A DNA stretch of 37,772 nt from Microbacteriaceae bacterium BACL25 MAG-120322-bin65 (GCA_001438965.1 LIAY01000003.1:1-37772), one strand, 5' to 3'. Numbered from the stretch's first letter, positions 2,019 to 19,516 are shown. The notes: generated by a model not told the origin, from the letters alone. Numbers and translations: made by a program.

Positions 2019-5000
2019 CGAAAATTTCGTGCTGCAGTGGGAACCTGGAGCTCTAGTTTTTCGATTGCATCTGCCACCACGGAGACGACTCCTTCCGGGC
2101 TTCGCTCCAGTAGTCCTCTCACGATAAGGGCGCCACTATCTCGAAGCACGAGTCGATAGCGCTTCCACAATCCCACACCACAGATGACATTAACCAGACC
2201 GGTTTCATCTTCCACGTTGAGAAACGTCACCCCCATTGCAGTGGAGGGGCGTTGCCGGTGGGTCACCATTCCCGCCACCCACACCCGGCGTCCCGGCTCA
2301 TGGGTGAGCATGTCCGCCACGGTGGATACCCCCGAATCGCTGAGCCGCTGGCGCACATAACGCACCGGGTGATCCCCGGGGGAGGCGCCAGTGAAAATGC
2401 GATCAGCCATCATCACTTCGTGTGGTGTCATATCGTCAAATAAGGGCAACACCAAAGCCGTGGTGGTGTGAGGGAGATACTGCGGATGCTCAGTAGCGAG
2501 ATGCCCAGCGGCCCATATTCCTTCTCGGCGCGAGATTCCACAATCATCCAGTGCGCCTGCGCTCGCTAAAGACTCAAGATGGCGGGCGCTAAGCCCTACC
2601 CGCCGGGCCAGATCAGTGGGATCAGCATAAAGACCACCAGAAAGTCGCTCGGTGACAATGCGCTTGGCTGTTTCTGCACCAACTCCGCGCACACTGGCGA
2701 GACCCCACCGCACAGCCAAAGCACTATCGCGTCGGTGTGTGGTGGTGGGGTCTTCGCCGTGAGGGTTAAAAACAGGAGACGGAGCGGGCTGGTCATAGCG
2801 CAGGCAATCATCTAGACCACTGGGTGTGGCGCTGCCGCCCTCCACAGCCTCTACGGAGGCCTCGGACAGTGAATACTGCACCGAAGCGCGCCTGATTTCC
2901 ACTCCGTGGCGTTCTGCATCAGAAACCAGAGATGCCCCGGAGTAGAAACCCATCGGTTGTGCTCGTAGCAAACCGGTAAGAAACACTGCCGGATAGTGCA
3001 ATTTCAACCAAGCACTGGCATAGACGAGCAAAGCGAAACTTAAGGAATGGCTCTCAGCAAACCCAAAATTGGCAAAGGCTTGAATCATCGTATAAATACG
3101 ATCCGATGTCGCCGTATCTAAGCCGCTCTTAGCCATGCCGGTATAGAGCGTTTCTCGTAACGACTCGATGCGCTCTAAACCACGTTTTGATCCCATCGCA
3201 CGACGCAATAAATCAGCGTCCTCACCACTGCAACCGCCTACGGCCATTGCAATTTGCATCAGTTGTTCCTGGAATATCGGCACCCCCAAAGTGCGCTTCA
3301 GACACTCCTCGAGCGCTGGGTGTGGATATTCCACCGGTTCCAGACCTGCCTTGCGACGCACGAAAGGGTGCACCGCACCCCCTTGAATGGGGCCTGGTCG
3401 CACCATCGCAATTTGGATGGCTAAGTCATAAAATCTGCGCGGTTGAAGCCTTGGCAGTAGGGCCATTTGCGCCCTGGATTCCACTTGGAAAACCCCGATG
3501 GAATCGGCGCGACAGAGCATGTCATACACACCTGCTTCATCCCGAGGCAGCGTGGCAAGCTCAAAGGATTCCCCCAAGTGTTCTTCCACCAGGTCAAAGG
3601 TGTCCCGGATGGCTTCTAAAATCCCTAAACCTAAAAGATCAAACTTGACCAAACCCATCCATTCACAGTCATCTTTATCCCACTGCAACACTGTGCGATC
3701 GGCCATCCTGGCGTGTTCGATGGGCACCACTTCTGATACGGGACGATCGGTGAGGACCATGCCACCGGAGTGAATCCCTAGATGTCGGGGCAGAGTGAGC
3801 GCGCGCAGGGCAAGGGTGGTGACGTTATCGGGAATGGTGTGAGAGTCAGTGTCTTTGAGCGCACCCGATCGCTCTATCTGACGAGAGAAGGAATCTTGTT
3901 GACCAGCGCTAAAGCCAAGGGCTCTTGCCATATCGCGAATCGAACTTTTGCCACGGTATTCAATAACGGTGGCAACCTGGGCGGCTTGCCTGCGCCCGTA
4001 GCGCTCATAGACGTATTGGATGACTTCTTCACGCCTACGAGATTCAAAATCAACATCGATATCGGGTTCTTCATCCCGCAGGGCAGAAAGAAAACGTTCA
4101 AAGGGCAGGTTGTAATAAATCGAATCAACCGCTGTGATATCGAGTAAAAAACACACCGCAGAATTTGCCGCTGACCCACGGCCTTGGCAGAGGATTCCTC
4201 GCCCTCGGGCAAAACGAACAATGTCGTGAACAATCAAAAAGTACCCAGCGAAATCCTTTTTCTCGATCAGATCAAGTTCCGCAGCAATGCGCTTCTCTAT
4301 AGCCGGTGACGCTTGTGGGTAACGTCTGGGCACCGCTTCACTAATGAGGCTTCGTAAATAACTCATCGGTGTGTGACCTTCAGGGGATATCGAGCTTGGC
4401 AAACCCGGTGTTACTTTTTTGAGCGAAAAACTCAACTGGGCGGCAATCTCGGCACTGCGGGGGACTGCACCGGGAAAAGCCTTAAACCGCTTGGCTTGTT
4501 GCGCGCCCGAGCGCAAATACGCAGCCGGTGAAGCGGGCAACCAGTTATGTAATGAATCCAAGCTAGATCGTGCGCGCACAGCCGCCATAGCCTGAGCGAG
4601 ATCAGCTTCTTCTGGGGTGGCGTAGTGCACCATTCCCGTTGCCACAACAGCTAGACGATGCTTCATCGCCAGTGTCGCAAGAAAATCATTGTGCGCACTA
4701 TCCAGAGGGTGTCCGTGGTCATAGAGCTCCACCACGACGTTGTCAGCCCCAAAGAGATCTACCAGGCGTTCTAGCTGCTCTTCACTACGCGCTTGTTCTT
4801 TTTGTGAGGGCATCCGGGTGTGAGGTAATTCCGATCGAACCCCACCTTTACGACAGCCGGTAAGAATCATCCAGTGATCTCTGCCCATATCGGCCAAAGT
4901 TTCTAGATCACACTGGAGGGTGCCCTTTTCCGGTGTGGCTAAGTGGGCTTCTGTGAGAGCGCTACACAAGCGGTGATACCCCTGCTCACCACGGGCCAAG

Positions 5001-5404
5001 ACCAGCAAGTGTTGCCCTGAGGGGTCGGGCACTTCGGTGCGAGCTTGGTTATGAGCCAGTGAAATTTCTGCACCAAAAACGGTGGGCATGTCCAGTGAAG
5101 CAGCGGCTTCAGCAAAACGCACGGCGCCATACATACCGTTGTGATCGGTAATGGCAAGACCTTTTAGCCCCAGTTGTTTCCCTCGCTCCACCAGTTTCCC
5201 AGGTGCTGAGACGCCGTCGAGAAAACTAAAACTGGTGTGTAGGTGCAATTCGGCATAATCCGTGGCGTCCTCACCCACCGCCAAAGGTGGCTGCGGTGAT
5301 AGAAGCTGCTCTGAGCCACTCGAAACAGGTCTGAGCGCCCCAGGGTCGCCTCTCAGCCGTCGTTCATGCTCAGACCAGGCGATAGGCGGGTTATGCCACC
5401 CCAT
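2015..5404 (-). CDS. dnaE2: Error-prone DNA polymerase DnaE2 / ImuC
   Basis: 1129 aa C-family polymerase with N-terminal PHP domain (YAELHLHTSFSFLDGVS), PDIDVDFESRRREEVIQYVYERYG, GIHSGGMVLTD; lies directly after imuB with TAATG stop/start overlap. Confidence 0.95.
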   Translation of the reverse strand: MGWHNPPIAWSEHERRLRGDPGALRPVSSGSEQLLSPQPPLAVGEDATDYAELHLHTSFSFLDGVSAPGKLVERGKQLGLKGLAITDHNGMYGAVRFAEAAASLDMPTVFGAEISLAHNQARTEVPDPSGQHLLVLARGEQGYHRLCSALTEAHLATPEKGTLQCDLETLADMGRDHWMILTGCRKGGVRSELPHTRMPSQKEQARSEEQLERLVDLFGADNVVVELYDHGHPLDSAHNDFLATLAMKHRLAVVATGMVHYATPEEADLAQAMAAVRARSSLDSLHNWLPASPAAYLRSGAQQAKRFKAFPGAVPRSAEIAAQLSFSLKKVTPGLPSSISPEGHTPMSYLRSLISEAVPRRYPQASPAIEKRIAAELDLIEKKDFAGYFLIVHDIVRFARGRGILCQGRGSAANSAVCFLLDITAVDSIYYNLPFERFLSALRDEEPDIDVDFESRRREEVIQYVYERYGRRQAAQVATVIEYRGKSSIRDMARALGFSAGQQDSFSRQIERSGALKDTDSHTIPDNVTTLALRALTLPRHLGIHSGGMVLTDRPVSEVVPIEHARMADRTVLQWDKDDCEWMGLVKFDLLGLGILEAIRDTFDLVEEHLGESFELATLPRDEAGVYDMLCRADSIGVFQVESRAQMALLPRLQPRRFYDLAIQIAMVRPGPIQGGAVHPFVRRKAGLEPVEYPHPALEECLKRTLGVPIFQEQLMQIAMAVGGCSGEDADLLRRAMGSKRGLERIESLRETLYTGMAKSGLDTATSDRIYTMIQAFANFGFAESHSLSFALLVYASAWLKLHYPAVFLTGLLRAQPMGFYSGASLVSDAERHGVEIRRASVQYSLSEASVEAVEGGSATPSGLDDCLRYDQPAPSPVFNPHGEDPTTTHRRDSALAVRWGLASVRGVGAETAKRIVTERLSGGLYADPTDLARRVGLSARHLESLASAGALDDCGISRREGIWAAGHLATEHPQYLPHTTTALVLPLFDDMTPHEVMMADRIFTGASPGDHPVRYVRQRLSDSGVSTVADMLTHEPGRRVWVAGMVTHRQRPSTAMGVTFLNVEDETGLVNVICGVGLWKRYRLVLRDSGALIVRGLLERSPEGVVSVVADAIEKLELQVPTAARNFR

Positions 5405-6963
5405 TAGTCATACCGCGCTTCAATATGCCAGTGTCCATCATCCGTAGCGCTAATCAACCAGCCAAGCCCGTCCTCATCAACAACCTGGAGACGATGCAGA
5501 GACCGGCTATGAGTGGGATCCCACCATTTTTCCCACACTGGCCAAGGACCAGCCCAGGACGTCAGTTTCCTGCGGCGCTGACCAGAAATAAGCCAAGCCG
5601 GCGAAGCTGAAAGCTCGGCGCTAGCGGAAACCACGATGTCAGCGCCATCGTCACCCATGAGTGACACCGCCCACGGAATAGCAAAAACGGTGGCCGGTAG
5701 GGGAGAGGGCAACGCTCCAGGAAGAGGCCCCCGCTCGTGAGTCACGGGTGTTTTTTCGCCCCATGGTGTGAGCACCTGAGCTTCTCTAGCTACTCGCGCT
5801 CGTCGCGAGGTGCTCGTAAGAACGCCACTGGCCCCCACCATGCTTTGCACACGAGAGAGCACATGGTGCACTTTGCTATCGGGTCCATGTCCCCATAAAC
5901 CAGGTTCATGGGCGTAAATATCTTCAGGTTCTACCGCGGCATAGTGCACCGAGAGCACACCGGGTGGGAAGTCCGTATCTTCACCAGCGCGGTCACGAAA
6001 ACACTGGTCAAGTTGCCACCGCACGCGATCAACCAGATCACTCGCGGAGAAAAAGCGCGGGTGTACCCACGTGCGCTCGTGTACCTGACCGTCATCAAAA
6101 CTAAGGGTGATGCGCACCTGAGTACACACCTGTAAAGCCTGATAAAGCCGATCGCAGTACTGCTGCGTTCGTGTTCGAATAGCAAAACCAACCTGATCGG
6201 TCAGGGCGTATGACTCGGGAAGGTCAATGAGTTCCTGGGAATCCAGCGGTGCATCCCTTAGCGCTAGGGGAGTATCACCTAGACCCATAGCCAGTCGATA
6301 CAACCGCGATCCATGAGTGCCTAGACGCTCTCGGATTGCGTCTGCACCCAATGCCACAAAATCACCTACCGTATGCACTCCCAAGCGCACAAGAAGTGAC
6401 ACCGTGGCCTCATCATCTAAAACAGTGATCGGCATATCGGCAAGAAAAACAGCCGACTGCCCAGGTTCCACCGTTCGTATCGGATGCGTCGCTGTGGTCT
6501 GCCTGGCCGCTATCACCGCGCTGAAGAGATCATCAGCAATACCCACTCGAGTGCTAGCCAGGGGCTCACTGCGACTCACTGCGTCCATGAGAATCCTGGC
6601 GGAGGCTTGCTCACTGCCATAAAAACGAGCGAGACCTCGAGCGGGAAAAGCAACCAGTCCTGGAGAAATTAGCGAGTGTTGGGGCACATAGGTAGCCAGA
6701 TCAATAATGATGCGCTGAAAAGAAATGTGGTCCCGTGCGCTATCGGTAGCCGCCATCACGATGGTGGGGCAGATCAAGTGAGCATCTCGACGTTTCATTC
6801 CCACACGCACACCCGCCTGGGTGGCCTCCGTGGAACACTGTGTGAGCACACCGCCGTGTAGTAGCGCGACGGGAATACCAGGCACTATCTCGCTGAGTGA
6901 TTCATCTTGGTAAGCGGCCACGATCGACCATTGAGGGCACCACACCACCAGACTGCGCCGCAT
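5404..6963 (-). CDS. imuB: ImuB, Y-family polymerase-like mutasome protein
   Basis: Y-family-like 519 aa protein, N-term MRRSLVVWCPQWSIVAAYQ, QVLTPWG clamp-like motif, located between imuA and dnaE2. Confidence 0.9.
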   Translation of the reverse strand: MRRSLVVWCPQWSIVAAYQDESLSEIVPGIPVALLHGGVLTQCSTEATQAGVRVGMKRRDAHLICPTIVMAATDSARDHISFQRIIIDLATYVPQHSLISPGLVAFPARGLARFYGSEQASARILMDAVSRSEPLASTRVGIADDLFSAVIAARQTTATHPIRTVEPGQSAVFLADMPITVLDDEATVSLLVRLGVHTVGDFVALGADAIRERLGTHGSRLYRLAMGLGDTPLALRDAPLDSQELIDLPESYALTDQVGFAIRTRTQQYCDRLYQALQVCTQVRITLSFDDGQVHERTWVHPRFFSASDLVDRVRWQLDQCFRDRAGEDTDFPPGVLSVHYAAVEPEDIYAHEPGLWGHGPDSKVHHVLSRVQSMVGASGVLTSTSRRARVAREAQVLTPWGEKTPVTHERGPLPGALPSPLPATVFAIPWAVSLMGDDGADIVVSASAELSASPAWLISGQRRRKLTSWAGPWPVWEKWWDPTHSRSLHRLQVVDEDGLGWLISATDDGHWHIEARYD

Positions 6964-6968
6964 GGCGG

Positions 6969-7667
6969 CTAACCTGCCTGACGATGAGCGGCAATATCGG
7001 TAACCGCAGCATGACGGCTCACTTCATGGGTTCCCCATGCGTCAACGAGTATCTCGCAGGTGCGCACCGGATGCCCGTGACGCGGCGTAGCGCTGATTAA
7101 CACACGATGTTCATCCAGCATGCCCCGACCCTGTGTGATACCACTCCATTGATGACGCACCTGGATACTGGCTTCGGTACGAGGCCAGTCGTTGCGCACC
7201 AAAAGAGTGGCTTCTCTTTCGCGTAGACGCCCGGTGAGAGTAGAGAGGATGCGATCTGATGGCGCTGGCAGGGAACCCAGCGCCACGATACCCACTACAT
7301 CAATCAGGGCAGCTAGGACCGAAAACCACTGCTGGCCGGGATAGGGGACAAGGACAAGGCGGTCAACGTTCACTCCCATTTCCTCAGCAGCAGCAAGACC
7401 CATATCGGGCATGCCTACGAGGGCGCACCAGGTGCCTCGAGTCGAGGGCTGCGCTAGAAGCGCCCACAGCAGGGATGAGGAAGAATCCACCTGGTAGATA
7501 GCGCCACGCGAGAGACCTCCCTCGGGGAAAAGACTCGACACTGCTGGTGAAACAGGGAACACTCGGTGTTCCATCTTGGTAACTTCCATCGCATGAATGC
7601 GTTGTTGCAGAGCCTCCACTGCAGCGCGAGCGGGGGGAGCGCCTTCGAGAGTTATTGCGGGGGCCAT
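6969..7667 (-). CDS. imuA: ImuA-like (RecA-like SOS mutasome component); start proposed at ATG 7667 (MAPAITLEG) rather than the ORF-track start at 7790
   Basis: Operon position upstream of imuB/dnaE2; FPEGGLSRGAIYQV and downstream RecA/ImuA-like pattern. The longer ORF-track start would run through the terminator and into the tRNA-Leu gene. The proposed ATG lies 6 nt after a -10-like GAATAT. Confidence 0.85.
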   Translation of the reverse strand: MAPAITLEGAPPARAAVEALQQRIHAMEVTKMEHRVFPVSPAVSSLFPEGGLSRGAIYQVDSSSSLLWALLAQPSTRGTWCALVGMPDMGLAAAEEMGVNVDRLVLVPYPGQQWFSVLAALIDVVGIVALGSLPAPSDRILSTLTGRLREREATLLVRNDWPRTEASIQVRHQWSGITQGRGMLDEHRVLISATPRHGHPVRTCEILVDAWGTHEVSRHAAVTDIAAHRQAG

Positions 7668-7673
7668 AGAGCT

Positions 7674-7702
7674 ATATTCGAACATTTGTTCGATTGTGTC
7701 AA
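7674..7702 (-). promoter_or_regulatory. imuA promoter: TTGACA -35 (7697-7702), 17 nt spacer, GAATAT -10 (7674-7679)
   Basis: Minus strand: ttgaca-caatcgaacaaatgttc-gaatat-agctct-ATG; perfect -35, 17 nt spacing, -10 keeps A at position 2 and T at position 6. Confidence 0.7.
7678..7693 (-). promoter_or_regulatory. LexA (SOS) box TCGAAC-N4-GTTCGA
   Basis: Plus strand reads tcgaacatttgttcga, matching the actinobacterial LexA consensus TCGAACNNNNGTTCGA at all 12 defined positions, just upstream of imuA. Confidence 0.9.
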
Positions 7703-7715
7703 CCTCCACTGACAC

Positions 7716-7757
7716 AAAAGAAAAACAGGGCCCTTCGTCGAAACGAAAGACCCTGTT
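7716..7757 (-). terminator. Intrinsic terminator downstream of tRNA-Leu
   Basis: Minus strand AACAGGGTCTTTCGTTTCGACGAAGGGCCCTGTTTTTCTTTTG: stem AACAGGG/CCCTGTT plus TTCGT/ACGAA, followed by a T-rich tract. Confidence 0.8.
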
Positions 7758-7763
7758 GTCGCG

Positions 7764-7846
7764 TGCGCGAGAGGGGACTTGAACCCCCACGCCCTTTCGG
7801 GCACTAGCACCTCAAGCTAGCGCGTCTGCCATTCCGCCACCCGCGC
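7764..7846 (-). tRNA. tRNA-Leu (anticodon GAG)
   Basis: Minus strand GCGCGGGTGGCGGAATGGCAGACGCGCTAGCTTGAGGTGCTAGTGCCCGAAAGGGCGTGGGGGTTCAAGTCCCCTCTCGCGCA: 7-bp acceptor stem, CTAGC-TTGAGGT-GCTAG anticodon arm, variable arm, GGTTCAAGTCC T-arm; no encoded CCA. Confidence 0.95.
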
Positions 7847-7941: not shown

Positions 7942-8799
7942 ATGGGTCTGTGGGAAGCAATACTGCTGGGCATCGTTCAAGGTCTCACCGAATTCCTCCC
8001 CGTCTCTTCTAGCGCGCACGTGCGCATTGTGGGGGAGTTTCTACCCAGTGCCACCGACCCCGGAGCCACCTTCACCGCAATAACCCAAATTGGCACAGAG
8101 CTTGCCGTCTTGGTCTATTTCGCGGGAAATATCGGAAACATTCTCACCGGCTGGTTTCGCTCACTAGGAAAACCTCGCTCCTGGTGGAAAACCGCCCCAG
8201 CCTCCCAGCGTCAAGATGCACGGCTTGGCTGGTTGATCATGGTGGGAACGCTCCCCATTGTTGCCGTGGGCTATTTCGGCCAGGAATACATTCGTGGCGC
8301 ATTTAGATCACTCTGGTTAGTCGCCACCGTGCTCATTGTTTTCGGGCTCATCCTGGCCGCAGCCGACTGGTGGGGCAAAAAGTCACGAGACTTGACCATC
8401 TTGAGCACACCACATGGCCTCGCCTATGGATTCGCCCAAATGCTGGCGCTCGTCCCCGGTGTTTCTCGCTCAGGCGCGACCATAGCTATGGGCCGGACCT
8501 TGGGCTATGACCGGGTATCCGCCACCCGATATTCCTTCTTACTGGCCATACCGGCAGTGCTGGGTAGTGGTTTCTATGAGCTCAACACTGCTCTTTCTAG
8601 TCCTGATACTGCAGGGCCTTTTACTCTTTTTGATACGGCAGTGGCCACCGTAATGGCCTTCATGATCGGCTGGGCTGTTATCGCTTGGCTCATGCGCTAT
8701 GTCAGCACGCGCAGTTTCCTACCCTTTGTGATTTATCGCCTAGCGTTGGGAACAGCACTGCTGGTGGCGCTTTCCACCGGAGCAATCGACCCGCTATGA
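7942..8799 (+). CDS. uppP: Undecaprenyl-diphosphatase
   Basis: GIVQGLTEFLPVSSSAHVRI and MLALVPGVSRSGATIAMG are the family motifs. Confidence 0.97.
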   Translation: MGLWEAILLGIVQGLTEFLPVSSSAHVRIVGEFLPSATDPGATFTAITQIGTELAVLVYFAGNIGNILTGWFRSLGKPRSWWKTAPASQRQDARLGWLIMVGTLPIVAVGYFGQEYIRGAFRSLWLVATVLIVFGLILAAADWWGKKSRDLTILSTPHGLAYGFAQMLALVPGVSRSGATIAMGRTLGYDRVSATRYSFLLAIPAVLGSGFYELNTALSSPDTAGPFTLFDTAVATVMAFMIGWAVIAWLMRYVSTRSFLPFVIYRLALGTALLVALSTGAIDPL

Positions 8800-9648
8800 C
8801 TCGTTAGAACCTGGTCTGTCGGGTCGGCTTTCCAAATATTTTTCAAACTCTTGGGCAATAGCATCCCCGGAAGCTTCTGGAGCGTCAGCGGTATCTCTCG
8901 CCTGCTCTAATTGATCGATATAGGCACTCATGTCCTCGTCTTCAGCGGCAAGAACATCAATGCCTTCCTCCCATTGCACTGATTCCGCTTCTAAGGATTG
9001 TCGATCAGTCTGAATCCCCACCAACTCTTCTAACTTCTCCAATATGGCCAAAGTTGCTTTGGGGGAGGGCGAAGTGTGGACGTAGTGAGGGACATGGGCC
9101 CATAGATGCAGCGAAGGAATTCCCACCTCCGCAGCGGCTAGCGATAACACCGTTAACACTCCCACGGGACCTTCATAAGATGATTTTTCAATGTCATATT
9201 CGTCACGGATAGCCGCGTCGCCACTGGTGGCCGTAACCCGAACTGGACGAGAGTGGGGGACATCAGCCAACATGGCGCCCAAAAACACGATGCTATCTAT
9301 GCCATAGGCCAGGGCGTGATCCACCATCTGGCTGGCAAAAGAGCGCCACAACCGCGAAGGTTCTTGACCGGTCAGAACATAGGGCGAGTCAATATCACCA
9401 GAGGCCGGGCCGAAAAGGGAAACATCGGGCCATTTCACCGAGCGGACACCGTCGCTGCCCTGTTCCACCAGGGGGCGGGTGAGTTGGAAATCAAAATACT
9501 CTTCAGGATCCACATGGGTCAGGGCGCTGAGGCCACACTGGTCGACCACAATCTCGGCTGCGTGACTAGCCGCATCACCGGCGTCATTCCAACCTTCAAA
9601 AGCGACAATCAGGATTTTACTGGGGTCGCTCAAAGGGATATTGCTCAT
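8794..9648 (-). CDS. PAC2 (proteasome assembly chaperone 2-like) family protein
   Basis: ILIVAFEGWNDAGDAASHA, ...FDFQLTRP, LGAMLADVPHSRPVRVTATS, GIPSLHLWAHVPHYVHTSPSPKA are typical of actinobacterial PAC2 proteins. Confidence 0.92.
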   Translation of the reverse strand: MSNIPLSDPSKILIVAFEGWNDAGDAASHAAEIVVDQCGLSALTHVDPEEYFDFQLTRPLVEQGSDGVRSVKWPDVSLFGPASGDIDSPYVLTGQEPSRLWRSFASQMVDHALAYGIDSIVFLGAMLADVPHSRPVRVTATSGDAAIRDEYDIEKSSYEGPVGVLTVLSLAAAEVGIPSLHLWAHVPHYVHTSPSPKATLAILEKLEELVGIQTDRQSLEAESVQWEEGIDVLAAEDEDMSAYIDQLEQARDTADAPEASGDAIAQEFEKYLESRPDRPGSNES

Positions 9649-9707: not shown

Positions 9708-10397
9708 GTGGGTACAACATCGATGCAGGCCGTTCTTTTCGACATGGACGGCACCATCATCGATTCTGAGCCCTATTGGATGATCGCCGAGCGGGAACTG
9801 GTCGAAAGCTTTGGCGGCACTTGGAGTGACGAGCAGGGCTATGCCCTCGTCGGTAGCGGCCTATGGAACTCCGCCGGCGTGATCAAAGCTGCGGGCGTTG
9901 AGTTAGAACTTGATGACATCGTCCACCGACTCAGCGATCGTGTCCTCGGCCAGATTGAACAAGCAGTGCCGTGGCGTCCCGGGGTTCGAGAAATCTTGAG
10001 AGAGCTCCTCTCAGCCGAAATTCCTTGTGCCTTAGTCACCATGTCTCTTCGCAAAAACGCCCAAGCACTCGCTGACGCCGTAGCGAGAGAACTAGGAGCA
10101 CCCTTTTTTCGCGCCATCGTCGCCGGCGATGATGTGACCATGCCAAAGCCCAACCCCGAGGCATACCTTTTGGGGGCACAGGCACTCGGTGTCGACATTG
10201 CCAACACCATTGCCTTAGAAGATTCCAGCTACGGCGCAGCCAGCGCATTTTCTGCCGGTGCGATCACCATCGGTATTCCTCTACACGTAGAAATACCTGA
10301 ACACATGGTTCATGAAATCTGGACTTCTCTGGATGGAAAATCCGTTGCTGATCTCGTTTCTACCTGGCAAGCGCATCGTCTAGGAGAGAACGCATGA
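9708..10397 (+). CDS. HAD-family hydrolase (beta-phosphoglucomutase-like)
   Basis: AVLFDMDGTIIDSEP motif I, DDVTMPKPNPEAYL, ALEDSSYGAASAFSAG. Confidence 0.93.
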   Translation: MGTTSMQAVLFDMDGTIIDSEPYWMIAERELVESFGGTWSDEQGYALVGSGLWNSAGVIKAAGVELELDDIVHRLSDRVLGQIEQAVPWRPGVREILRELLSAEIPCALVTMSLRKNAQALADAVARELGAPFFRAIVAGDDVTMPKPNPEAYLLGAQALGVDIANTIALEDSSYGAASAFSAGAITIGIPLHVEIPEHMVHEIWTSLDGKSVADLVSTWQAHRLGENA

Positions 10398-11383
10398 CCC
10401 CCCGAAGAGGCGTTTTTGTGGTGGGCGATCATGTGCAACTGCGTGGCCCTAGAGGCAATTTGCACACCATTACGTTGGAGGAAAACGGCAGTTTTCACAC
10501 CCACAAGGGCGTTCTTTCCCACAATAATCTCCTGGGCCAACCTGAAGGTTCGGTAGTGAACACCGATAACGGTGTTAGCTATCTCGCGCTGCGGCCGCTA
10601 TTGGGCGATTTTGTGCTCTCCATGTCCCGTGGTGCTGCGATTATCTACCCCAAAGACGCTGCCCACATTGTCTCGGTAGCCGACATCGCACCGGGTCACC
10701 GAGTCCTGGAGGCCGGCGTGGGTTCCGGTGCTCTGACGTTGTCTATCTTGCGCGCCATTGGTGACACCGGTTCCTTGGTGTCCATTGAGCGCCGTGAAGA
10801 GTTTGCCGATATTGCTAAAGCCAACGTCGCCATCTTCATGGGCGAACTGCCCACGCAGTGGGAGTGCCAGGTGGGGGATTTCCAAGACCGTGCTCTGGAA
10901 TTAGTTGCCCACAGTGTCGACCGAGTGGTGCTGGACATGCTCGCACCGTGGGAATGCGTTGACGCGCTGTGCCACGCGTTGATTCCTGGCGGGGTCGTGG
11001 CTGTTTATGTGGCCACTGTCACGCAACTCTCCCGGGTTGTGGAAGCAATTCGGGCATCGGGACGATTTACTAATCCTGAATCTCAAGAAGTACTCATTCG
11101 CCCCTGGCATGTTGAAGGCCTCGCCGTTCGACCAGAGCACCGCATGATCGGCCATACCGGCTTTGTGATGACCGCTCGCCTAGTTGCTCCCGGGGTTGAG
11201 GTTCCGGCCACCAAACGCCACCACAAGAAGCCTGAATATTCGAGTGAAGATGTTGAAGCTTGGACGCCTGGAGCTACCGGTCAGCGCCAAGCCAGCGATA
11301 AAAAGCTTCGTAAAACTCTTCGCCTAGCGCAGGAACGAGTTGAGAAGTCGCGCAGCGACGAAGCCTCAGATGGCGCTCAGTAG
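10394..11383 (+). CDS. trmI: tRNA (adenine-N1)-methyltransferase
   Basis: DFVLSMSRGAAIIYPKDAAHIVSVADIAPGHRVLEAGVGSGALTLSILRAIG is characteristic of TrmI; overlaps the HAD gene by ATGA. Confidence 0.93.
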   Translation: MTPRRGVFVVGDHVQLRGPRGNLHTITLEENGSFHTHKGVLSHNNLLGQPEGSVVNTDNGVSYLALRPLLGDFVLSMSRGAAIIYPKDAAHIVSVADIAPGHRVLEAGVGSGALTLSILRAIGDTGSLVSIERREEFADIAKANVAIFMGELPTQWECQVGDFQDRALELVAHSVDRVVLDMLAPWECVDALCHALIPGGVVAVYVATVTQLSRVVEAIRASGRFTNPESQEVLIRPWHVEGLAVRPEHRMIGHTGFVMTARLVAPGVEVPATKRHHKKPEYSSEDVEAWTPGATGQRQASDKKLRKTLRLAQERVEKSRSDEASDGAQ

Positions 11384-11386
11384 ACT
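11381..11386 (+). promoter_or_regulatory. Candidate -10 element TAGACT, 7 nt before FKBP ATG
   Basis: TAGACT-aggggtt-ATG; TANNNT at leaderless spacing. Hexamer contains the trmI stop codon. Confidence 0.5.
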
Positions 11387-11393
11387 AGGGGTT

Positions 11394-12386
11394 ATGCCTC
11401 AGTTATCTCTGCCGAAGTTGTTGGTCATCGCTGCCGTTGTTGTTGCCGGCGGGGCAGCCATCGGTGTTACCGCCGTGAGCGCACTTGATGCCAACTCCGC
11501 GTGTGACTATCCCGTTTCGCCCGGTGGTGCCTCGGCCTTGGTTTCCGCGATCGTCAACCCCGAAGCAATGTCGGAAGTGGCTTTTCCTACCCCTCTGATC
11601 ACCACCGGTCAAGAAATGAGCGTCGTGTTTCCCGGCGAGGGTGAACAGGCACAGCAGGGCGATGCCATTGACTTTGATGTCAGTGTTTTTGTCGGTTCAG
11701 ATGGTCAGTTTCTCACCGGGTCCAGCTATGACCCAGCAAATCCCGTGCGACGGGTGATTGATAACACTGGGGACGACTTTTTTGCTTCTGTGTTGGAATG
11801 TCAGCGCCCGGGAGCGCAGGTTGTGATGACCTCACCAATTGTTGAAGTTTTTGGTTCCATCGAAGGCGATGACTACGTCTCGAACGACTCCACGATTGTC
11901 TTGGTTATCGATGTGCACCAGACATACCCTTCGCGTGCCGAAGGGTCACCCCGTCTTCCTCAATCAGGGATGCCCACGGTGGTACAAGCTCCCAGTGGTG
12001 AGCATGGGCTTAGTTTCCCTAATGCCCCCATCCCCACCGAGTTGCGTGTTTCTGTCTTAAAACAAGGCAGTGGGCCTCTGCTTGCCGATGGTGATGTGAT
12101 GGTCGCGAATTTGACTGCAGCAGTGTGGAACACCCGCACCATATTTTTCAGCAGTTTTGATATCGGTGTTCCGCTGGCGCTTCTGGTCACCGATAAGAGC
12201 CAGTCCGCCAGCGGCGAAGGTATTGTGGCGGGCCTCGCCCAGGCTCTGATTGGCCAAAGTGTGGGCTCGCAAATCCTCATTTCGGTGCCACCTGAGTTGG
12301 GCTATGCGCCAGGTACTGCCCCAGCGGGCGTGAGCGATGGTTCCACCCTGGTCTATGTGATCGACATTCTGGGTCTGGGCAGCTAA
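11394..12386 (+). CDS. FKBP-type peptidyl-prolyl isomerase-like protein (signal anchor)
   Basis: N-terminal hydrophobic segment LLVIAAVVVAGGAAIGVTAV, C-terminal GQALIGQSVGSQILISVPPELGYAPGTAPAGVSDGSTLVYVIDILGL. ORF track starts upstream; ATG 11394 follows a TAGACT-N7 promoter. Confidence 0.85.
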   Translation: MPQLSLPKLLVIAAVVVAGGAAIGVTAVSALDANSACDYPVSPGGASALVSAIVNPEAMSEVAFPTPLITTGQEMSVVFPGEGEQAQQGDAIDFDVSVFVGSDGQFLTGSSYDPANPVRRVIDNTGDDFFASVLECQRPGAQVVMTSPIVEVFGSIEGDDYVSNDSTIVLVIDVHQTYPSRAEGSPRLPQSGMPTVVQAPSGEHGLSFPNAPIPTELRVSVLKQGSGPLLADGDVMVANLTAAVWNTRTIFFSSFDIGVPLALLVTDKSQSASGEGIVAGLAQALIGQSVGSQILISVPPELGYAPGTAPAGVSDGSTLVYVIDILGLGS

Positions 12387-12409
12387 GCGCTCCTGATTGC
12401 TAAACCTTC

Positions 12410-12415
12410 TAGGAT
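12410..12415 (+). promoter_or_regulatory. Candidate -10 element TAGGAT, 6 nt before pafB GTG
   Basis: TAGGAT-gagcgt-GTG. Confidence 0.5.
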
Positions 12416-12421
12416 GAGCGT

Positions 12422-13408
12422 GTGAGTGGGCCATCCAGTGCAGTAAACCCCGAAGATCGGCTTTTTCACCTGATTTTGGCGTTAATGTCGAGCTCCTATG
12501 GGCTAACCAAAGACCAGATTCTCTCCACCGTGCGCGGGTATCGCGAAGATACCGAAGGTGGAATGGCACGCGAGAGCATCGAACGACGCTTTGAGCGTGA
12601 CAAAGATTCCCTCAGAAGCCTTGGCATTCCCCTCGAGGCCACGATTCCTCCTGAAGACGACGGGAACAACAAGAACACCCTGTATCGGATCCCCAAGGGC
12701 GCCTACGACCTGCCCGACGATATTGAATTTAGTGCGCGCGATATCGCACTGCTTAACCTTGCCGCAGCGGTGTGGCGCGAAGGCACACTGTCCAAGGACG
12801 CACGCATTGCTCAGATGAAACTGGCTTCCTTTGGCATCACCGTCGATGAGCGACTGGTGGGTTTTGCCCCGGTGATCAGCACCCGGGATCCCTCTTTGCA
12901 GGCTCTTCGCGATGCTATTGACCAGGGTGTGACGGTGAGCTTTAGCTACCTCAAGCCTGGTGATACCACCGCGTCCAAACGCACCGTCTCACCCCAGGCT
13001 TTGGTGAATCACGAAGGCCGCTGGCACCTCTATAGCCATGAAGCCTCTAGTGGCAAACATAAGACGTTCTTACTTCGACGCATCGTTTCAGGCGTTGCCC
13101 TTCACACCGAGCCAGCCGTCGAGGCCATCGCTGGCGTAGCAGATCAGGCGCTAGCTGATTTAGAAAAGCTCTATCAAACCCAGCACGCCCTTATTGAGGT
13201 CACTTCCGGCAGTGACGCCTGGAGCGTGCTCACCCAACGCCGGGGCACAACCGCGGAGGGATCACACCTTCTTGTCCACTACACGGATGCCGATATTTTT
13301 GCCGAAGAGCTGTGTTCGTATGGTGATGACGTCATGGTTCTAGAACCCGAGGCCTTGCGCACCCAAGTGATAGCCCACCTGACAGGCCTGGTGGGCGCAC
13401 ATGGCTAA
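12422..13408 (+). CDS. pafB: WYL-domain transcriptional regulator, PafB-like
   Basis: HTH N-terminus plus WYL region (VSFSYLKPG...TVSPQALVNHEGRWHLYSH...FLLRRI), first of a tandem pair preceding tatA-tatC-helY. Confidence 0.9.
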   Translation: MSGPSSAVNPEDRLFHLILALMSSSYGLTKDQILSTVRGYREDTEGGMARESIERRFERDKDSLRSLGIPLEATIPPEDDGNNKNTLYRIPKGAYDLPDDIEFSARDIALLNLAAAVWREGTLSKDARIAQMKLASFGITVDERLVGFAPVISTRDPSLQALRDAIDQGVTVSFSYLKPGDTTASKRTVSPQALVNHEGRWHLYSHEASSGKHKTFLLRRIVSGVALHTEPAVEAIAGVADQALADLEKLYQTQHALIEVTSGSDAWSVLTQRRGTTAEGSHLLVHYTDADIFAEELCSYGDDVMVLEPEALRTQVIAHLTGLVGAHG

Positions 13409-14408
13409 GAAGACCTCTCAACCCGGCGCCGTTCGACCCAGCGCCACGGACAACTTGTTGTTGTTGCTCGCCCTTGTTCCCTATGTGCTCGACCGGGGTG
13501 AGGTCAGCGCTGCCCAAGCGGCCACCCAGTTTGGGCGCAGCGAAGCCGACATTGTCAAAGCGATTGAACTCATCGCGTGCGCGGGTATCCCTGGCGATAG
13601 CGAGGCTTATTCCCACCTTGATTTGTTCGATATTGATTGGGATTTGTGGGAACAAGACCGGGTCATTACTTTTTGGAACACGGTTGCTATTGACCACCAA
13701 CCTCGCTTTAGTGCCAGGGAAGCTTCCGCATTATTAGCAGGCTTGCAGTATTTGGCCACCCACCCGTCTTATGCACCACGCAGTGAAGTTGATGAAGTTA
13801 TGGCCAAACTGCGCCAAGGGGCAGGGACAGGTCCAGCCGATCGCATTGCGGTGCGCTCTGATGCGGTCGAGAGCCACTTGAGCGTGATTGGCGACGCCAT
13901 TAGCAACAAGGTGGGCATCACCATGACCTACCACAACAAACGTGGCGAGTCAGGGCAAAGAACCATCGACCCGCTGGTTGTGGAGTCACGCGATACCCAG
14001 TGGTACGTCCGAGGCTGGTGCCATAGCCGGCAAGCGCTTCGGACTTTCCGGGTGGACCACATGGAAAATGTTGCCGTAACAGATATCGCCCAGGGTGATC
14101 ATCAATCGCTTATTGAAGACATCTCAAGCGAACTATTTGAACCATCTTCTGATGACATCAGCGTGACCATCGAATGCTCTCGTGGCGCGTTACCGCTGAT
14201 CGCTGATTATCTGCCCCGAGGGGTTGCCCCCGCAGCCCAGGGCGATCCACTGCGACTAGAGATCCCTTTTGCTCACTACGGCTCACTGACGCACTTTGTG
14301 GCGGCACACCCGGGACGGGTCCGAGTCCTTGGTCCCAAATCTGCCTGTGTGGCCGTGCACGATTTCGCCCAGAAGGCGCTGAGTCGTTATGACCCCATTC
14401 GCCACTAG
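13401..14408 (+). CDS. pafC: WYL-domain transcriptional regulator, PafC-like
   Basis: VGITMTYHNKRGESGQRTIDPLVVESRDTQWYVRGWCHSRQALRTFRVDHM; overlaps pafB by 8 nt. Confidence 0.9.
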   Translation: MAKKTSQPGAVRPSATDNLLLLLALVPYVLDRGEVSAAQAATQFGRSEADIVKAIELIACAGIPGDSEAYSHLDLFDIDWDLWEQDRVITFWNTVAIDHQPRFSAREASALLAGLQYLATHPSYAPRSEVDEVMAKLRQGAGTGPADRIAVRSDAVESHLSVIGDAISNKVGITMTYHNKRGESGQRTIDPLVVESRDTQWYVRGWCHSRQALRTFRVDHMENVAVTDIAQGDHQSLIEDISSELFEPSSDDISVTIECSRGALPLIADYLPRGVAPAAQGDPLRLEIPFAHYGSLTHFVAAHPGRVRVLGPKSACVAVHDFAQKALSRYDPIRH

Positions 14409-14497
14409 AAGGCAACTGTTCGTTACTCACTGCCCACTACGCTCAAGTCCTCGGTGATACACTCTCACTACGTTGTAGGGACCAGGAAAGGTTGGCA

Positions 14498-14701
14498 ATG
14501 TCAGGAAACCTCGGTGGATGGACAGGACTGATTGTCCTCGTTGTTGTCTTGCTTCTTTTTGGTGCTCCAAAATTACCGGCACTGGCAAAGAGCTTGGGAC
14601 AGTCTTTGAAGATTTTCAAGAGCGAAGTGCGACCTACTGATTCCAAGGACCAGGAAGAGTCCTCGTCGAAATCTAAAGACCAAGACTCTTCTAGCGCCTA
14701 G
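14498..14701 (+). CDS. tatA: Sec-independent protein translocase TatA
   Basis: MSGNLGGWTGLIVLVVVLLLFGAPKLPALAKSLGQSLKIFKSEV; AGGAAAGG SD upstream. Confidence 0.95.
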   Translation: MSGNLGGWTGLIVLVVVLLLFGAPKLPALAKSLGQSLKIFKSEVRPTDSKDQEESSSKSKDQDSSSA

Positions 14702-14703
14702 CC

Positions 14704-15504
14704 GTGGCTCGCTCACGCCGCCCCGAAGTGCGCGGGCGGATGTCGCTGGGAGAGCACCTGCTTGAACTGCGTCGTCGACTGGGGTTCATTGGACTTTCGA
14801 TTGTTCTTGCCGCTGTGGCTGGCTGGTTTCTCGCAGATCCGGTTTGGGATGCGCTGAGCGCTCCGGTATTAGAGATTGCTCTGGAGCGCGACCGTAATGC
14901 GGAAATCAATTACACCTCCGTTACTGAAGCCTTCGACACCAAAATTGCCATTGCCATGGTGTTGGGTATCGTTCTAGCTGCACCCGTGTGGCTGTATCAA
15001 ATCTGGGCCTACTTTGTGCCCGCCCTGATGCGCAAAGAGCGCCGCTATGCATTGGGTTTTCTCTGCGCAGCGGTTCCGCTGTTTTTTGCTGGTGTTGCCA
15101 TGGGCTGGTGGGTGTTACCCAACATTGTTGTGTTACTCACAGGCTTCGCCCCTGAACAGTCCTCAACCCTTCTCACCGCAAAAGTTTATTTAGACTTCGC
15201 CCTGAAGCTGGTCCTCGCAATCGGCGTGGGGTTCGTACTACCCGTCTTTCTTGTTCTACTCAATTTCATTGGGGTCATTAGCGCCCACAGCATCATCCAT
15301 GGCTGGCGCTGGGCCATCGTGGTCATCTCCGTGTTTACCGCGCTCGCCACTCCGGCAGCCGATGTTGTGTCGATGGTGATCCTCGCTATTCCGATGATTG
15401 TGCTCTACTTCTTGGCGGCTGGTATCGCCTGGCTACACGATCGCCGGGCTAGCAAAAAAGCCGCCAACGAGATGGCCACCACTGATATTTCCGCCACCGA
15501 CTAG
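14704..15504 (+). CDS. tatC: Sec-independent protein translocase TatC
   Basis: MSLGEHLLELRRRLGF, multi-pass protein adjacent to tatA. Confidence 0.96.
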   Translation: MARSRRPEVRGRMSLGEHLLELRRRLGFIGLSIVLAAVAGWFLADPVWDALSAPVLEIALERDRNAEINYTSVTEAFDTKIAIAMVLGIVLAAPVWLYQIWAYFVPALMRKERRYALGFLCAAVPLFFAGVAMGWWVLPNIVVLLTGFAPEQSSTLLTAKVYLDFALKLVLAIGVGFVLPVFLVLLNFIGVISAHSIIHGWRWAIVVISVFTALATPAADVVSMVILAIPMIVLYFLAAGIAWLHDRRASKKAANEMATTDISATD

Positions 15505-15517
15505 TCTCAGTGGAGAC

Positions 15518-17932
15518 ATGACTGACCTCAGCCCGGCGGATAGATTCCAGAGCGCCACCGCTCGAAAAAAGAGCCCGCTGCTCAACGCTTTCGCACAGGG
15601 TCTCAGCATTGACTTAGACCCCTTTCAACGCGCCGCATGCGAGTCGGTCGAGGCTAAACGAGGCGTATTAGTCGCCGCCCCCACCGGGGCTGGAAAGACG
15701 ATTGTTGCCGAGTTTGCCGTGCACGTTGCGATGCTTTCTGGCGACATCAAGGTTTTTTACACGACACCAATTAAGGCTTTGTCTAACCAGAAATTCAGCG
15801 AGCTGGTGGAAACTTATGGCGCTGAAAATATCGGCCTACTGACCGGTGATACCAGCATCAACCCTCGTGCCCGGGTGGTGATTATGACCACTGAGGTTTT
15901 GCGCAACATGCTCTATGCCGAAAGTGACCTGCTGGATAATTTGGGTTACGTCGTCATGGACGAGGTGCACTACCTAGCTGACCGTTTTCGGGGAGCTGTC
16001 TGGGAAGAAGTCATCATCCACCTACCCCAAGATGTTCAGCTCATTTCTCTCAGTGCCACCGTGTCTAATGCCGAAGAGTTTGGCGACTGGTTACAGACTG
16101 TTCGCGGCGACACCGATGTGATCGTCAGTGAAGATCGGCCGGTACCGCTGCACCAACACATGATGTTTGCCCAGAAATTGGTTCCCCTGTTTTCTGGCGA
16201 TCCCGGTAAAAAAGTGGTCAACCCTGAGGTCATCAAAACTGCCCAGTTACTGGGCCAGGGGAGCGCACAGCGTGGACGATCTCGTGGGGCTCCGCGCTAT
16301 CAACGCTTCGAAGACAAGCGCCACAAGGTCTATCGAGCAGACGTGGTGTCACTACTGGATGAAGAAAACCTCTTACCCGCTATCTTTTTCATCTTTTCCC
16401 GGGCTGGCTGTGATCAAGCAGTGTCCCAGGTGTTACGTCGCGGGGTGACACTGACCAATGAGGCAGAACGAGACCAAATCCTGGATCTCGTTGAAGAGAA
16501 ACTTGAGCGGCTCGATGATGATGACCGCGCTATTGTCGGCTATCACGATTGGCTTGATGGTGTTGTGCGAGGAGTTGCGGCTCACCACGCGGGGATGCTG
16601 CCCATTCTCAAAGAGGTCATCGAGCAACTTTTCAGGCAAAAACTTCTCAAAGTTGTCTTCGCCACTGAAACCCTTGCTTTGGGTATCAACATGCCAGCTC
16701 GCACTGTGGTGTTGGAAAAACTGGAGAAATTCAATGGCGAGGCCCGGGTTCCCATCACGGCGGGGGAGTACACCCAGCTCACCGGACGAGCGGGCAGGCG
16801 AGGTATCGACCACGAAGGTCACTCGGTGATTTCGTGGCAGCCAGGAATTAACCCAGAAGCTGTCGCTGCTCTGGCTTCCAGGCGGTCCTACCCGCTCACC
16901 TCCAGCTTTAGCCCCACTTACAACATGGCCGTCAACCTGATCGAGCAGTTCGGCCCCGAGCGCACTCGCACCATCCTGGAGTCCTCTTTTGCCCAGTTCC
17001 AAGCCGATAAGCATGTGGTGGAGCTAGCCCGTAGGGTGCGGGCAAACGACGAGTCATTGGCCGGGTACGCGCAAGCATTTGCTTGTGATCGTGGAGATTT
17101 TGCAGATTACGCAGCACTGCGGCGGGAGTTGAGCGATCTGGAGCGCGAGGGAGCGCAGCGCCCTTCTCGCAGATCTCGGCCAAGCGATAACAACGGGGAG
17201 ATTGAGCTTCTACAAAAGGCATTACGCTCTCATTCCTGTCATTCCTGTCCCGACCGTGAGGCACACGCTAGGTGGGCTACCCGATGGTGGAAGCTGGAGC
17301 GAGAAACCGAACGAGTGCGCCGCCAAATCCGCAGTCGCACCGGTGCGATCTCGATAGTTTTCGACCGGATTTGTGAAGTACTTGTCGAGGCCGGATATCT
17401 CTCGCAAGGAAATAAGGGCCTCGAGCTCACTACACACGGCTTTACGCTGCGAAGGATCTATGGCGAGCGCGACTTGTTGGTTGCCGAGTGTCTGAGGCGC
17501 CAGGTATGGAGCGGGCTCGATGCCCCAGCTTTAGCCGCCATGATTTCGTGTCTGGTGTATGAACCCCGCCGAGATGACACCCCGGTGTACCCCGGTGATT
17601 TGCCCCGAGGAGAGTTTGCTGCGGCTCTAGACGCCACGCGGCGTTGGCACAGAAAGCTCAGTGAAATCGAAAGCGACCATCACCTTTCTCCTACCGGTGA
17701 TCTCTCACCACAACTGGCCATGGCCATGCACAACTGGGCTTCCGGGCACCGACTAGAAAGCGTTTTGGACCACCGCGACATCCAAGCCGGTGACTTTGTT
17801 AGGTGGTGCAAGCAGGTCATGGATGTTTTAGATCAGATCATCACCATTGGTGAGGGACCCATTAACGCGGTTGCTCAAGACGCCCGATCCTCCATTTTTC
17901 GCGGGATTGTTGCTCTCAGCAGCGTCGCTTAG
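15518..17932 (+). CDS. helY: DEAD/DEAH-box RNA helicase, HelY/Ski2-like
   Basis: AAPTGAGKTIVAEFAV, MDEVHYLADRFRG, SLSATVSNAEEFG, TETLALGINMPARTVVLEKLEKFNG, QLTGRAGRRGID. Start MTDLSPADRF at 15518 preferred to the ORF-track start inside tatC. Confidence 0.94.
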   Translation: MTDLSPADRFQSATARKKSPLLNAFAQGLSIDLDPFQRAACESVEAKRGVLVAAPTGAGKTIVAEFAVHVAMLSGDIKVFYTTPIKALSNQKFSELVETYGAENIGLLTGDTSINPRARVVIMTTEVLRNMLYAESDLLDNLGYVVMDEVHYLADRFRGAVWEEVIIHLPQDVQLISLSATVSNAEEFGDWLQTVRGDTDVIVSEDRPVPLHQHMMFAQKLVPLFSGDPGKKVVNPEVIKTAQLLGQGSAQRGRSRGAPRYQRFEDKRHKVYRADVVSLLDEENLLPAIFFIFSRAGCDQAVSQVLRRGVTLTNEAERDQILDLVEEKLERLDDDDRAIVGYHDWLDGVVRGVAAHHAGMLPILKEVIEQLFRQKLLKVVFATETLALGINMPARTVVLEKLEKFNGEARVPITAGEYTQLTGRAGRRGIDHEGHSVISWQPGINPEAVAALASRRSYPLTSSFSPTYNMAVNLIEQFGPERTRTILESSFAQFQADKHVVELARRVRANDESLAGYAQAFACDRGDFADYAALRRELSDLEREGAQRPSRRSRPSDNNGEIELLQKALRSHSCHSCPDREAHARWATRWWKLERETERVRRQIRSRTGAISIVFDRICEVLVEAGYLSQGNKGLELTTHGFTLRRIYGERDLLVAECLRRQVWSGLDAPALAAMISCLVYEPRRDDTPVYPGDLPRGEFAAALDATRRWHRKLSEIESDHHLSPTGDLSPQLAMAMHNWASGHRLESVLDHRDIQAGDFVRWCKQVMDVLDQIITIGEGPINAVAQDARSSIFRGIVALSSVA

Positions 17933-17944
17933 GCTTCCCTTCTC

Positions 17945-19516
17945 ATGTTTTCTCCTACCGGGCTAGTCCGACCCAGAGCATCGCTGGGTGCTCCGGCTTC
18001 GCTGCCGATAGCTATCGGGGTGGCCATACTTGCTGGCTGGTTGATGGATTTGGGCTTCCCTGATCGCGACTGGTGGCCACTAACCCTGCTGGGCACTGCG
18101 GCCATGATGTTCGCCGTTCGGGGACTGAGTTTGCCCAAAGCACTCCTTGTTGGCGCGGTGGGTGGTTTCACCTTCTATGGCATCACTATTTGGTGGCTCA
18201 CGGTATATCTGGGCTTAGTGCCCTGGATTGCTCTCACCCTGGCCGAGGTGGTCATATTTTCTCTTGGAATGGGCCTGATTGCCCTGATCTGGCGCTATGG
18301 CTCCGCGCACTGGAGCAGTGTCGCCGGGCGCTTAGGCGTGCTTCCCGCCCTGGTCGGGGGAGCCTGGATGCTGCGCGAAGCGATTTCGAGCATGTATCCC
18401 TGGGGTGGTTTCGCTTGGGCTCGTATTGCTCAAAGCCAGTCTGAGAGCACCCTTGCGCCCTTAGTTTCCTGGTTTGGTACCAGTGGCATGAGTTTTCTCC
18501 TTGCCTGGGCTGTGGCACTAGGTGTTGCCCTCCTTGGTGAGCCCCGATTGAGTGTCACCGGACGTGGCGGCCTCGCCGCAGCAGTGAGTCTGGCACTGGT
18601 GGTCTGGCCAGCGTGGCCGGTGGTGGAATCTGGTTCAATCCGAGTGTTAGCGATCCAGGGAAATGCCGATGCTGGGCTCCTGGCCAACTACCAACGTGGC
18701 GATAATTTGCGCGATCACTACCTGGTCAACCGTGAGCTTTATGGCGAAGAAGTCGATGTTGTGGTGTGGCCAGAAAATGCTTCCGATATCGACCCGCTAC
18801 GTCACCCAGAGGCCGCATCCGTGGTCTCTGAGGTTGCCCGAGAAATGAACGCGCCCTTGGTCGTGGGGGCCATCACCAAAGTCGGCGAAGAAAGCTTCAA
18901 CAGCATGCTGTTGTGGGAATATGACCCCACCCTTGAGCGGGGAGTGGCGAGAGATCAATACGACAAAATTCATCCAGTGCCCTTTGCTGAGTATCTACCG
19001 GAGCGGGAATTCTTTTACCCACTGTGGCCTTCGCTTTTTAGCATGATTCCCCGGGATTACTCGTTCGGGGAGCGCGATACGGTTTTTGCCCTAGATGGCG
19101 CCACAGCGGGAATTGCCATCTGTTTTGACATTGTCGATGACGCTATCGTGTGGTCAATGATGGACGAGGGCGCTGATGTGATTTTTGCCCCCACCAACAA
19201 CGCTGACTTCGGTCGGACCGATCAGAGTGTTCAACAACTGGCTATCGCAAGGCTCCGGGCGATCGAAACCGGACGCAGTGTGGTCAATATTTCTACCGTG
19301 GGGACCAGCGCCGTGATGGATCCCACCGGTGCCACACTCGATCGCCTGCCCACCTACACCGAGGGATACATGCTCCTCGATGTTCCCCTGGCTCATCACA
19401 CAACTCCAGCTACGTTTATTAAACAAAACCTAGAAGTTTTGGTTGGCTCGGCGACCATTGCTGGCTTGTTCACCGCTCTTGGTGCCACACGTTTTCGGCG
19501 CAAAGAAAGCGACTAA
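17945..19516 (+). CDS. lnt: Apolipoprotein N-acyltransferase
   Basis: Polytopic N-terminus plus carbon-nitrogen hydrolase domain: VVWPENASD, YDKIHPVPFAEYLPER, GIAICFDIVDD, NADFGRTDQSVQQLAIARLRAIETGRSVV. Confidence 0.93.
   Translation: MFSPTGLVRPRASLGAPASLPIAIGVAILAGWLMDLGFPDRDWWPLTLLGTAAMMFAVRGLSLPKALLVGAVGGFTFYGITIWWLTVYLGLVPWIALTLAEVVIFSLGMGLIALIWRYGSAHWSSVAGRLGVLPALVGGAWMLREAISSMYPWGGFAWARIAQSQSESTLAPLVSWFGTSGMSFLLAWAVALGVALLGEPRLSVTGRGGLAAAVSLALVVWPAWPVVESGSIRVLAIQGNADAGLLANYQRGDNLRDHYLVNRELYGEEVDVVVWPENASDIDPLRHPEAASVVSEVAREMNAPLVVGAITKVGEESFNSMLLWEYDPTLERGVARDQYDKIHPVPFAEYLPEREFFYPLWPSLFSMIPRDYSFGERDTVFALDGATAGIAICFDIVDDAIVWSMMDEGADVIFAPTNNADFGRTDQSVQQLAIARLRAIETGRSVVNISTVGTSAVMDPTGATLDRLPTYTEGYMLLDVPLAHHTTPATFIKQNLEVLVGSATIAGLFTALGATRFRRKESD

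Follow-up and report, generated by a model that had tools for sequence, protein, structure and literature searches.

Gene order at the locus

The stretch of DNA analysed here (the window; 37 772 nucleotides) belongs to a member of what is very probably the family Microbacteriaceae. From a PAC2-family gene on the minus strand, the gene order runs through HAD, trmI, FKBP, pafB, pafC, tatA, tatC and helY to lnt (Table 1). The adjacent pafB and pafC genes each encode HTH, WYL and WCX domains, as judged by Pfam and PDB matches, which is the arrangement expected of PafBC; the start of pafC lies inside the end of pafB, with an overlap of 8 nt, and the pair is thus probably co-translated. The FKBP product is secreted or lipoprotein-like. 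The neighbourhood from trmI through FKBP-pafB-pafC-tatA-tatC to helY was present both in the window and in 20 family loci, 19 of which also had the PAC2 gene in the same place.

Table 1. Features of the window around the trmI–FKBP junction
Feature	Coordinates	Strand	Assignment and remarks
PAC2-family gene	8794..9648	−	PF09754, E 1.5e-48; conserved outer left flank
HAD hydrolase gene	9708..10397	+	PF13419; directly upstream of trmI
trmI	10394..11383	+	TrmI-like_N and GCD14 (PF14801, PF08704); left flank of lost module
trmI–FKBP junction	11384..11393		10 bp; outgroup place of mpa-dop-pup-prcB-prcA-pafA
FKBP-type peptidyl-prolyl isomerase gene	11394..12386	+	FKBP_C, PF00254; right flank of lost module
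pafB	12422..13408	+	HTH, WYL and WCX regulator; family-specific ssDNA-pocket changes
pafC	13401..14408	+	HTH_PafC, WYL and WCX; PF19187, E 1.3e-25; 6sj9, E 2e-38; partner of PafB
tatA	14492..14701	+	PF02416
tatC	14704..15504	+	PF00902
helY	about 15515..17932	+	Ski2-like RNA helicase; PF08148 DSHCT and DEAD
lnt	17945..19516	+	Apolipoprotein N-acyltransferase; PF20154 and PF00795

The HAD gene adjoins trmI in 20/20 family loci, and outgroup loci have an additional gene between the two. In three outgroups (L088, L089 and L103) this gene was named by eye as an apparent M50 site-2 protease. Given the adjacency of HAD and trmI in family loci L066–L085, a second gene on the trmI side has also gone or moved.

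Absence of the Pup–proteasome genes from the family

The initial annotation had described the Pup–proteasome module as missing while its flanks were intact, and both domain calls and tblastn bore this out. In tblastn searches with the Mpa, Dop, Pup, PrcB, PrcA and PafA proteins of outgroups as queries, the window and 24 family loci gave chance-level matches only (E ≥0.06), and every one of the 20 outgroup loci gave strong matches to the module. At the trmI–FKBP junction, tblastn detected nothing left of the module. As the source MAG is fragmented (1.26 Mb in 160 contigs) and 83 % complete, absence from that genome proves little, and the survey was therefore extended to the family by genome-wide six-frame searches of 150 genomes from 81 genera, with a completeness of 90 % or more in 143 genomes. 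The domain shared by the Pup ligase PafA and Dop (PF03136) was found in 0/150 genomes across the 81 genera, 20S proteasome subunits (PF00227) in 0/150 and Pup (PF05639) in 0/80, and neither Mpa (TIGR03689) nor Bpa (PF10759) exceeded its cut-off in any of 100 family genomes. Two relatives from the same genus as the source organism, 97 % and 99 % complete, also lacked Pup–proteasome genes. In an order-wide sample that includes the family members, a Pup-ligase match was obtained in 352 of 396 genomes (351 over the cut-off).

Two kinds of weak match were set aside. Family AAA proteins matching Mpa scored far under the cut-off, and those read out were FtsH-like or a TPR-AAA protein. A sub-threshold Pup-ligase match in one genome (G506; E 7e-4) was discounted, and trmI adjoins FKBP at the locus of that genome.

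Place and age of the loss

trmI adjoins FKBP within the same neighbourhood in all 20 family loci, and in 18 of these the trmI stop is followed within about 0–120 bp by candidate FKBP start codons. In outgroups, the trmI–FKBP interval spans 5–10 kb and carries the module in the order mpa-dop-pup-prcB-prcA-pafA, with the FKBP gene sitting between pafA and pafB. Each of 20 loci from other families holds the module, and the trmI and FKBP genes enclose it wherever both flanks were covered. The same gene cluster is found in Mycobacterium in another order (Rv2115c to Rv2095c; PMC8223512). The comparison of family with outgroup loci agrees with the clean excision between trmI and FKBP that had been proposed initially.

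The absence is fixed throughout the sampled family, which places the event on the family stem, and the simplest account is a family-wide loss of the whole module in a single ancient event, with no relocation seen. The initial annotation had asked whether the module was lost or relocated; the observation behind that question was right and the answer is loss, although the loss is not peculiar to this genome, and its family-wide extent is well supported. Searching whole genomes for Mpa, Dop, Pup, PrcA, PrcB and PafA, and widening that search to the family, revealed no relocated copies. The source assembly is incomplete and in many pieces, and the module genes might have been missed there or moved elsewhere; however, they are absent from both same-genus genomes and from the 143 genomes of at least 90 % completeness, and genome-wide six-frame searches would have exposed a relocation, so that this reading is refuted at the level of the family and hardly credible for the organism itself. 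It is also very unlikely that the module was never present in the family and instead entered this site in the other families of the order. Actinobacterial proteasome genes are thought to derive from horizontal transfer (PMC8223512), which would allow for such gains, but the same arrangement recurs across the sampled families of the order and in Mycobacterium (PMC8223512), and independent gains in one slot are far less likely than a single loss. Where both flanks are covered, the outgroups hold the module exactly between trmI and FKBP, which speaks against an ancestor that had never carried it there.

Loss of pupylation genes is not unique to the window's family, since a Pup-ligase match was also missing from four or more genomes (G152, G197, G320 and G341) of a further family, f4. 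In addition, two outgroup loci (L099 and L100) keep mpa-dop-pup-pafA and gave no match for prcB and prcA, an intermediate state between the full system and its full loss. Pupylation without a 20S proteasome, as in Corynebacterium, is related to the present case as a partial loss at the same locus. It differs in that L099 and L100 keep mpa, dop, pup and pafA, whereas the window's family is without everything from mpa to pafA, and in that L100 keeps R211 of PafB.

Retention of PafBC and its exceptions

With the window PafC as query, a PafC homologue was found in 147/150 family genomes and 80/81 genera, and a scan of a general contig collection gave one match, in an unrelated Oscillospiraceae. 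The job of PafBC, which is to drive repair genes through sigma-70-type RecA-NDp promoters, needs no pupylation, and this would explain why pafB and pafC stayed. Three genomes (G084, G144 and G015) were PafC-negative. Loss was rejected for G084 and G144, both of genus g6, as their pafB-pafC slot holds a diverged, fused pafB-pafC ORF of about 700–740 aa. G015 (L194) keeps trmI-FKBP-tatA-tatC, has pafBC deleted and carries neither helY nor lnt at this locus; it is the only genome truly without PafC among those checked.

The fused, diverged frame of about 700–740 aa was seen at three g6 loci (L180, L181 and L182). A third g6 genome, G005, gave a very weak PafC match; the fused frame in its slot still carries RWHL and VFLLSR, the family PafB signature. 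FKBP was not detected in G084. At two f4 loci (L183 and L184, from the Pup-ligase-negative genomes G152 and G341) the PafBC-like protein is also a single fused frame, of 619–672 aa, from which the PafB WYL domain seems, by eye, to be missing; this hints at a change of the PafB sensor in another lineage without pupylation.

RecA-NDp promoters and the predicted regulon

Two features had escaped the initial annotation: a PafBC-type promoter upstream of recA and a remodelled ssDNA pocket in PafB. The 430 bp upstream of recA were scored over 12 positions against TTGTCRGTG-N8-TANNNT, which we take to be the published RecA-NDp motif. Of the family genomes scored, 24 have a separate PafC; 19 of these matched at 10 or more of the 12 positions, a score that also arises by chance in long sequence, and two others matched at 9/12 (shuffle p <0.1). 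The recA site begins 84–87 bp after the start of the LexA (SOS) box in 17 genomes, one having a spacer longer by 1 nt; in two outgroups this distance is 79 and 82 bp. In the genome from which the window comes, the recA site is less convincing, with 10/12 positions matching (shuffle p about 0.03). No credible RecA-NDp site was found upstream of recA in four genomes with fused or no PafBC, G015 included, or in two g11 genomes; genera g11 and g6 keep PafBC-like genes and lack a clear recA site.

Nine typical genomes with a separate PafC together contained 33 genome-wide occurrences of the pattern TGTCRGWG-N8-TANNGT and one of its reversed control; in six genomes that belong to g11 or whose PafBC is diverged or missing, the counts were 2 and 3, respectively. 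The association is one of raw counts across related genomes, uncorrected for relatedness. The first genes downstream were recA in six genomes and ribonucleotide reductase in two, together with genes for an SbcD-like nuclease, a UvrD-like helicase and a glutaredoxin-like protein. In M. smegmatis, it is PafBC with bound ssDNA that causes RNA polymerase to use RecA-NDp promoters (PMC11804915). The PafBC of this family would likewise bind the conserved sites, and the predicted regulon appears to survive without pupylation.

Three kb from pafBC, the minus strand of the window (2015–7790) carries a likely imuA'-imuB-dnaE2 mutasome operon, comprising a DnaE-type polymerase, an IMS-domain protein and a small third gene. 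Its start probably lies after the listed GTG at 7790, an ATG near 7667 being a better fit. A perfect SOS box, CGAACAAATGTTCG, lies at 7679–7692, directly preceded by a RecA-NDp-like site (7715–7693) matching at 10/12 positions, which alone is not significant in 37 kb.

The ssDNA pocket of PafB

PafB proteins from the family (n=41) were aligned with 12 from outside it, including M. smegmatis and Arthrobacter, and M. smegmatis numbering is used throughout. The family sequences form one clade (support 0.96). Position 211 is Leu in 41/41 family sequences vs Arg in 12/12 outgroup sequences, and R204 is Arg in 4/41 vs 11/12. Position 196, which is Tyr in all 12 outgroup sequences, is His in 29 family members, Met in six, Leu in four, Val in one and Tyr in one. 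Other residues are kept in the family, namely R181 (40/41), R208 (as Arg or Lys), F210 and R214 (41/41), and position 213 is often Arg or Lys (Arg in 15/41). The HTH-B arginines R46 (as Arg or Lys) and R50, both needed for function in M. smegmatis (PMC6789036), are each present in 41/41. The PafC pocket is similar in family and outgroup, its residues being largely kept. In the window, the PafB pocket reads RWHL...TFLLRR, with L217 corresponding to M. smegmatis R211. An AlphaFold2 model of this protein had pLDDT above 90 in the WYL-WCX region and an uncertain overall domain arrangement (pTM 0.52); its best PDB match was M. smegmatis PafB (9fnd_X), at a TM score of 0.34.

In M. smegmatis PafB, R181A, Y196A and R211A/R214A each abolish ssDNA binding, with R211 mutated only jointly with R214; Y196A retains RNA polymerase association, and R201A/R204A in PafC does not abolish ssDNA binding (PMC11804915). 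The full M. smegmatis set of PafB ssDNA residues (R181, Y196, R204, R208, R211 and R214) is not found in the family, which weakens the case for M. smegmatis-like sensing and leaves PafBC orthology untouched. The initial annotation had the WYL regulators retained independently of pupylation; this holds on the promoter side, but the sensor has changed. Judged from these sequences, PafBC may still activate repair genes while sensing damage differently.

What the exchanges in the pocket mean is weighed here between three readings. Our tentative preference, which we would put somewhat short of an even chance, is that PafB has lost the mycobacterial mode of ssDNA binding in its WYL pocket, that the PafC WYL domain or another ligand acts as the trigger, and that this arose together with the complete loss of pupylation. 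The changes could, although we think it rather doubtful, be lineage variation with no functional meaning, with the usual ssDNA binding carried by R181, R208, R214 and new basic residues such as Arg213. The retention of the first three (R208 as Arg or Lys) and the frequency of Arg or Lys at position 213 speak for this, whereas the finding that Y196A by itself abolished ssDNA binding in M. smegmatis (PMC11804915) speaks against it; R211 was tested there only in combination with R214. Relaxed constraint in a regulator decaying after the loss of its partner system would fit the reduced genomes with a diverged, fused PafBC (g6) or none (G015), as well as the missing clear recA site in g11. Such drift would not, however, fix one residue, as with Leu at 211 in every family sequence, nor leave R50 and R214 invariant and R181 all but so; reading frames are intact in nearly all genomes and free-living members show a strong excess of the promoter sites, and we consider drift unlikely. 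The residue changes and the loss of the module share one branch and so amount to a single coincidence, by which a causal link is only suggested. Of the findings, it is the altered pocket that a specialist would not have expected.

Discussion

Taken as a whole, we regard as probable a history in which the module was lost on the stem, PafBC was kept and stayed active at recA and some repair genes, and PafB sensing was remodelled. Of this history, the sequences themselves show the loss with its place and family-wide extent, the retention of PafBC, the promoter sites and the residue exchanges. The family ancestor would have carried mpa-dop-pup-prcB-prcA-pafA between trmI and FKBP, and the whole block would have been lost before the sampled genera diverged. 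On the same stem the PafB WYL pocket would have been remodelled, with R211 replaced by Leu, Y196 mostly by His, and R204 lost. Conserved promoter sites suggest that PafBC continues to act at recA and at some further repair genes, next to LexA. Damage sensing would now probably depend mainly on the PafC WYL domain, or on a different mode of nucleic-acid recognition: DNA damage would expose ssDNA, PafBC would be activated, probably with a larger share for PafC, and activated PafBC would then promote transcription of recA and other repair genes alongside LexA control. In M. smegmatis pupylation is the shut-off step of the damage response (PMC8223512); in this family shut-off may be achieved by another protease that removes RecA after repair, or by dilution.

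PafBC of mycobacteria and Arthrobacter (9fnd, 7p5x and 6sj9) resembles that of the window's family in its gene pair, gene order, HTH-WYL-WCX architecture, R46/R50 and, largely, the PafC pocket, as well as in having RecA-NDp-like promoters beside SOS boxes at recA. It differs in that the family has no Pup–proteasome genes and that family PafB is without R211 and mostly without Y196 and R204. DriD of Caulobacter (8tp8), which the window PafB model matches, is likewise a WYL-WCX activator of damage genes that senses ssDNA, but it is a homodimer with other promoters and no link to a proteasome locus.

A 2021 review placed the Pup locus in all Actinobacteria, and proteasomes have been called 'nearly universal' in actinobacteria, although two of the four organisms used in an older survey had none (PMC4255298), so that isolated absences were already known. 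Among open-licence papers on Microbacteriaceae together with proteasome, pupylation or PafB, none described the present loss. Gene loss of this kind was known, and the family-wide loss adds a new and much larger example.

In summary, a large, mostly free-living family with seemingly the same PafBC promoters and zero pupylation constitutes a natural experiment on the link between PafBC and pupylation, and allows a direct test of the need for the shut-off role of pupylation and of what takes its place. The exchanges fixed at residues that were found essential for ssDNA sensing in a 2025 study offer a comparison for how sensing is split in heterodimeric WYL regulators.
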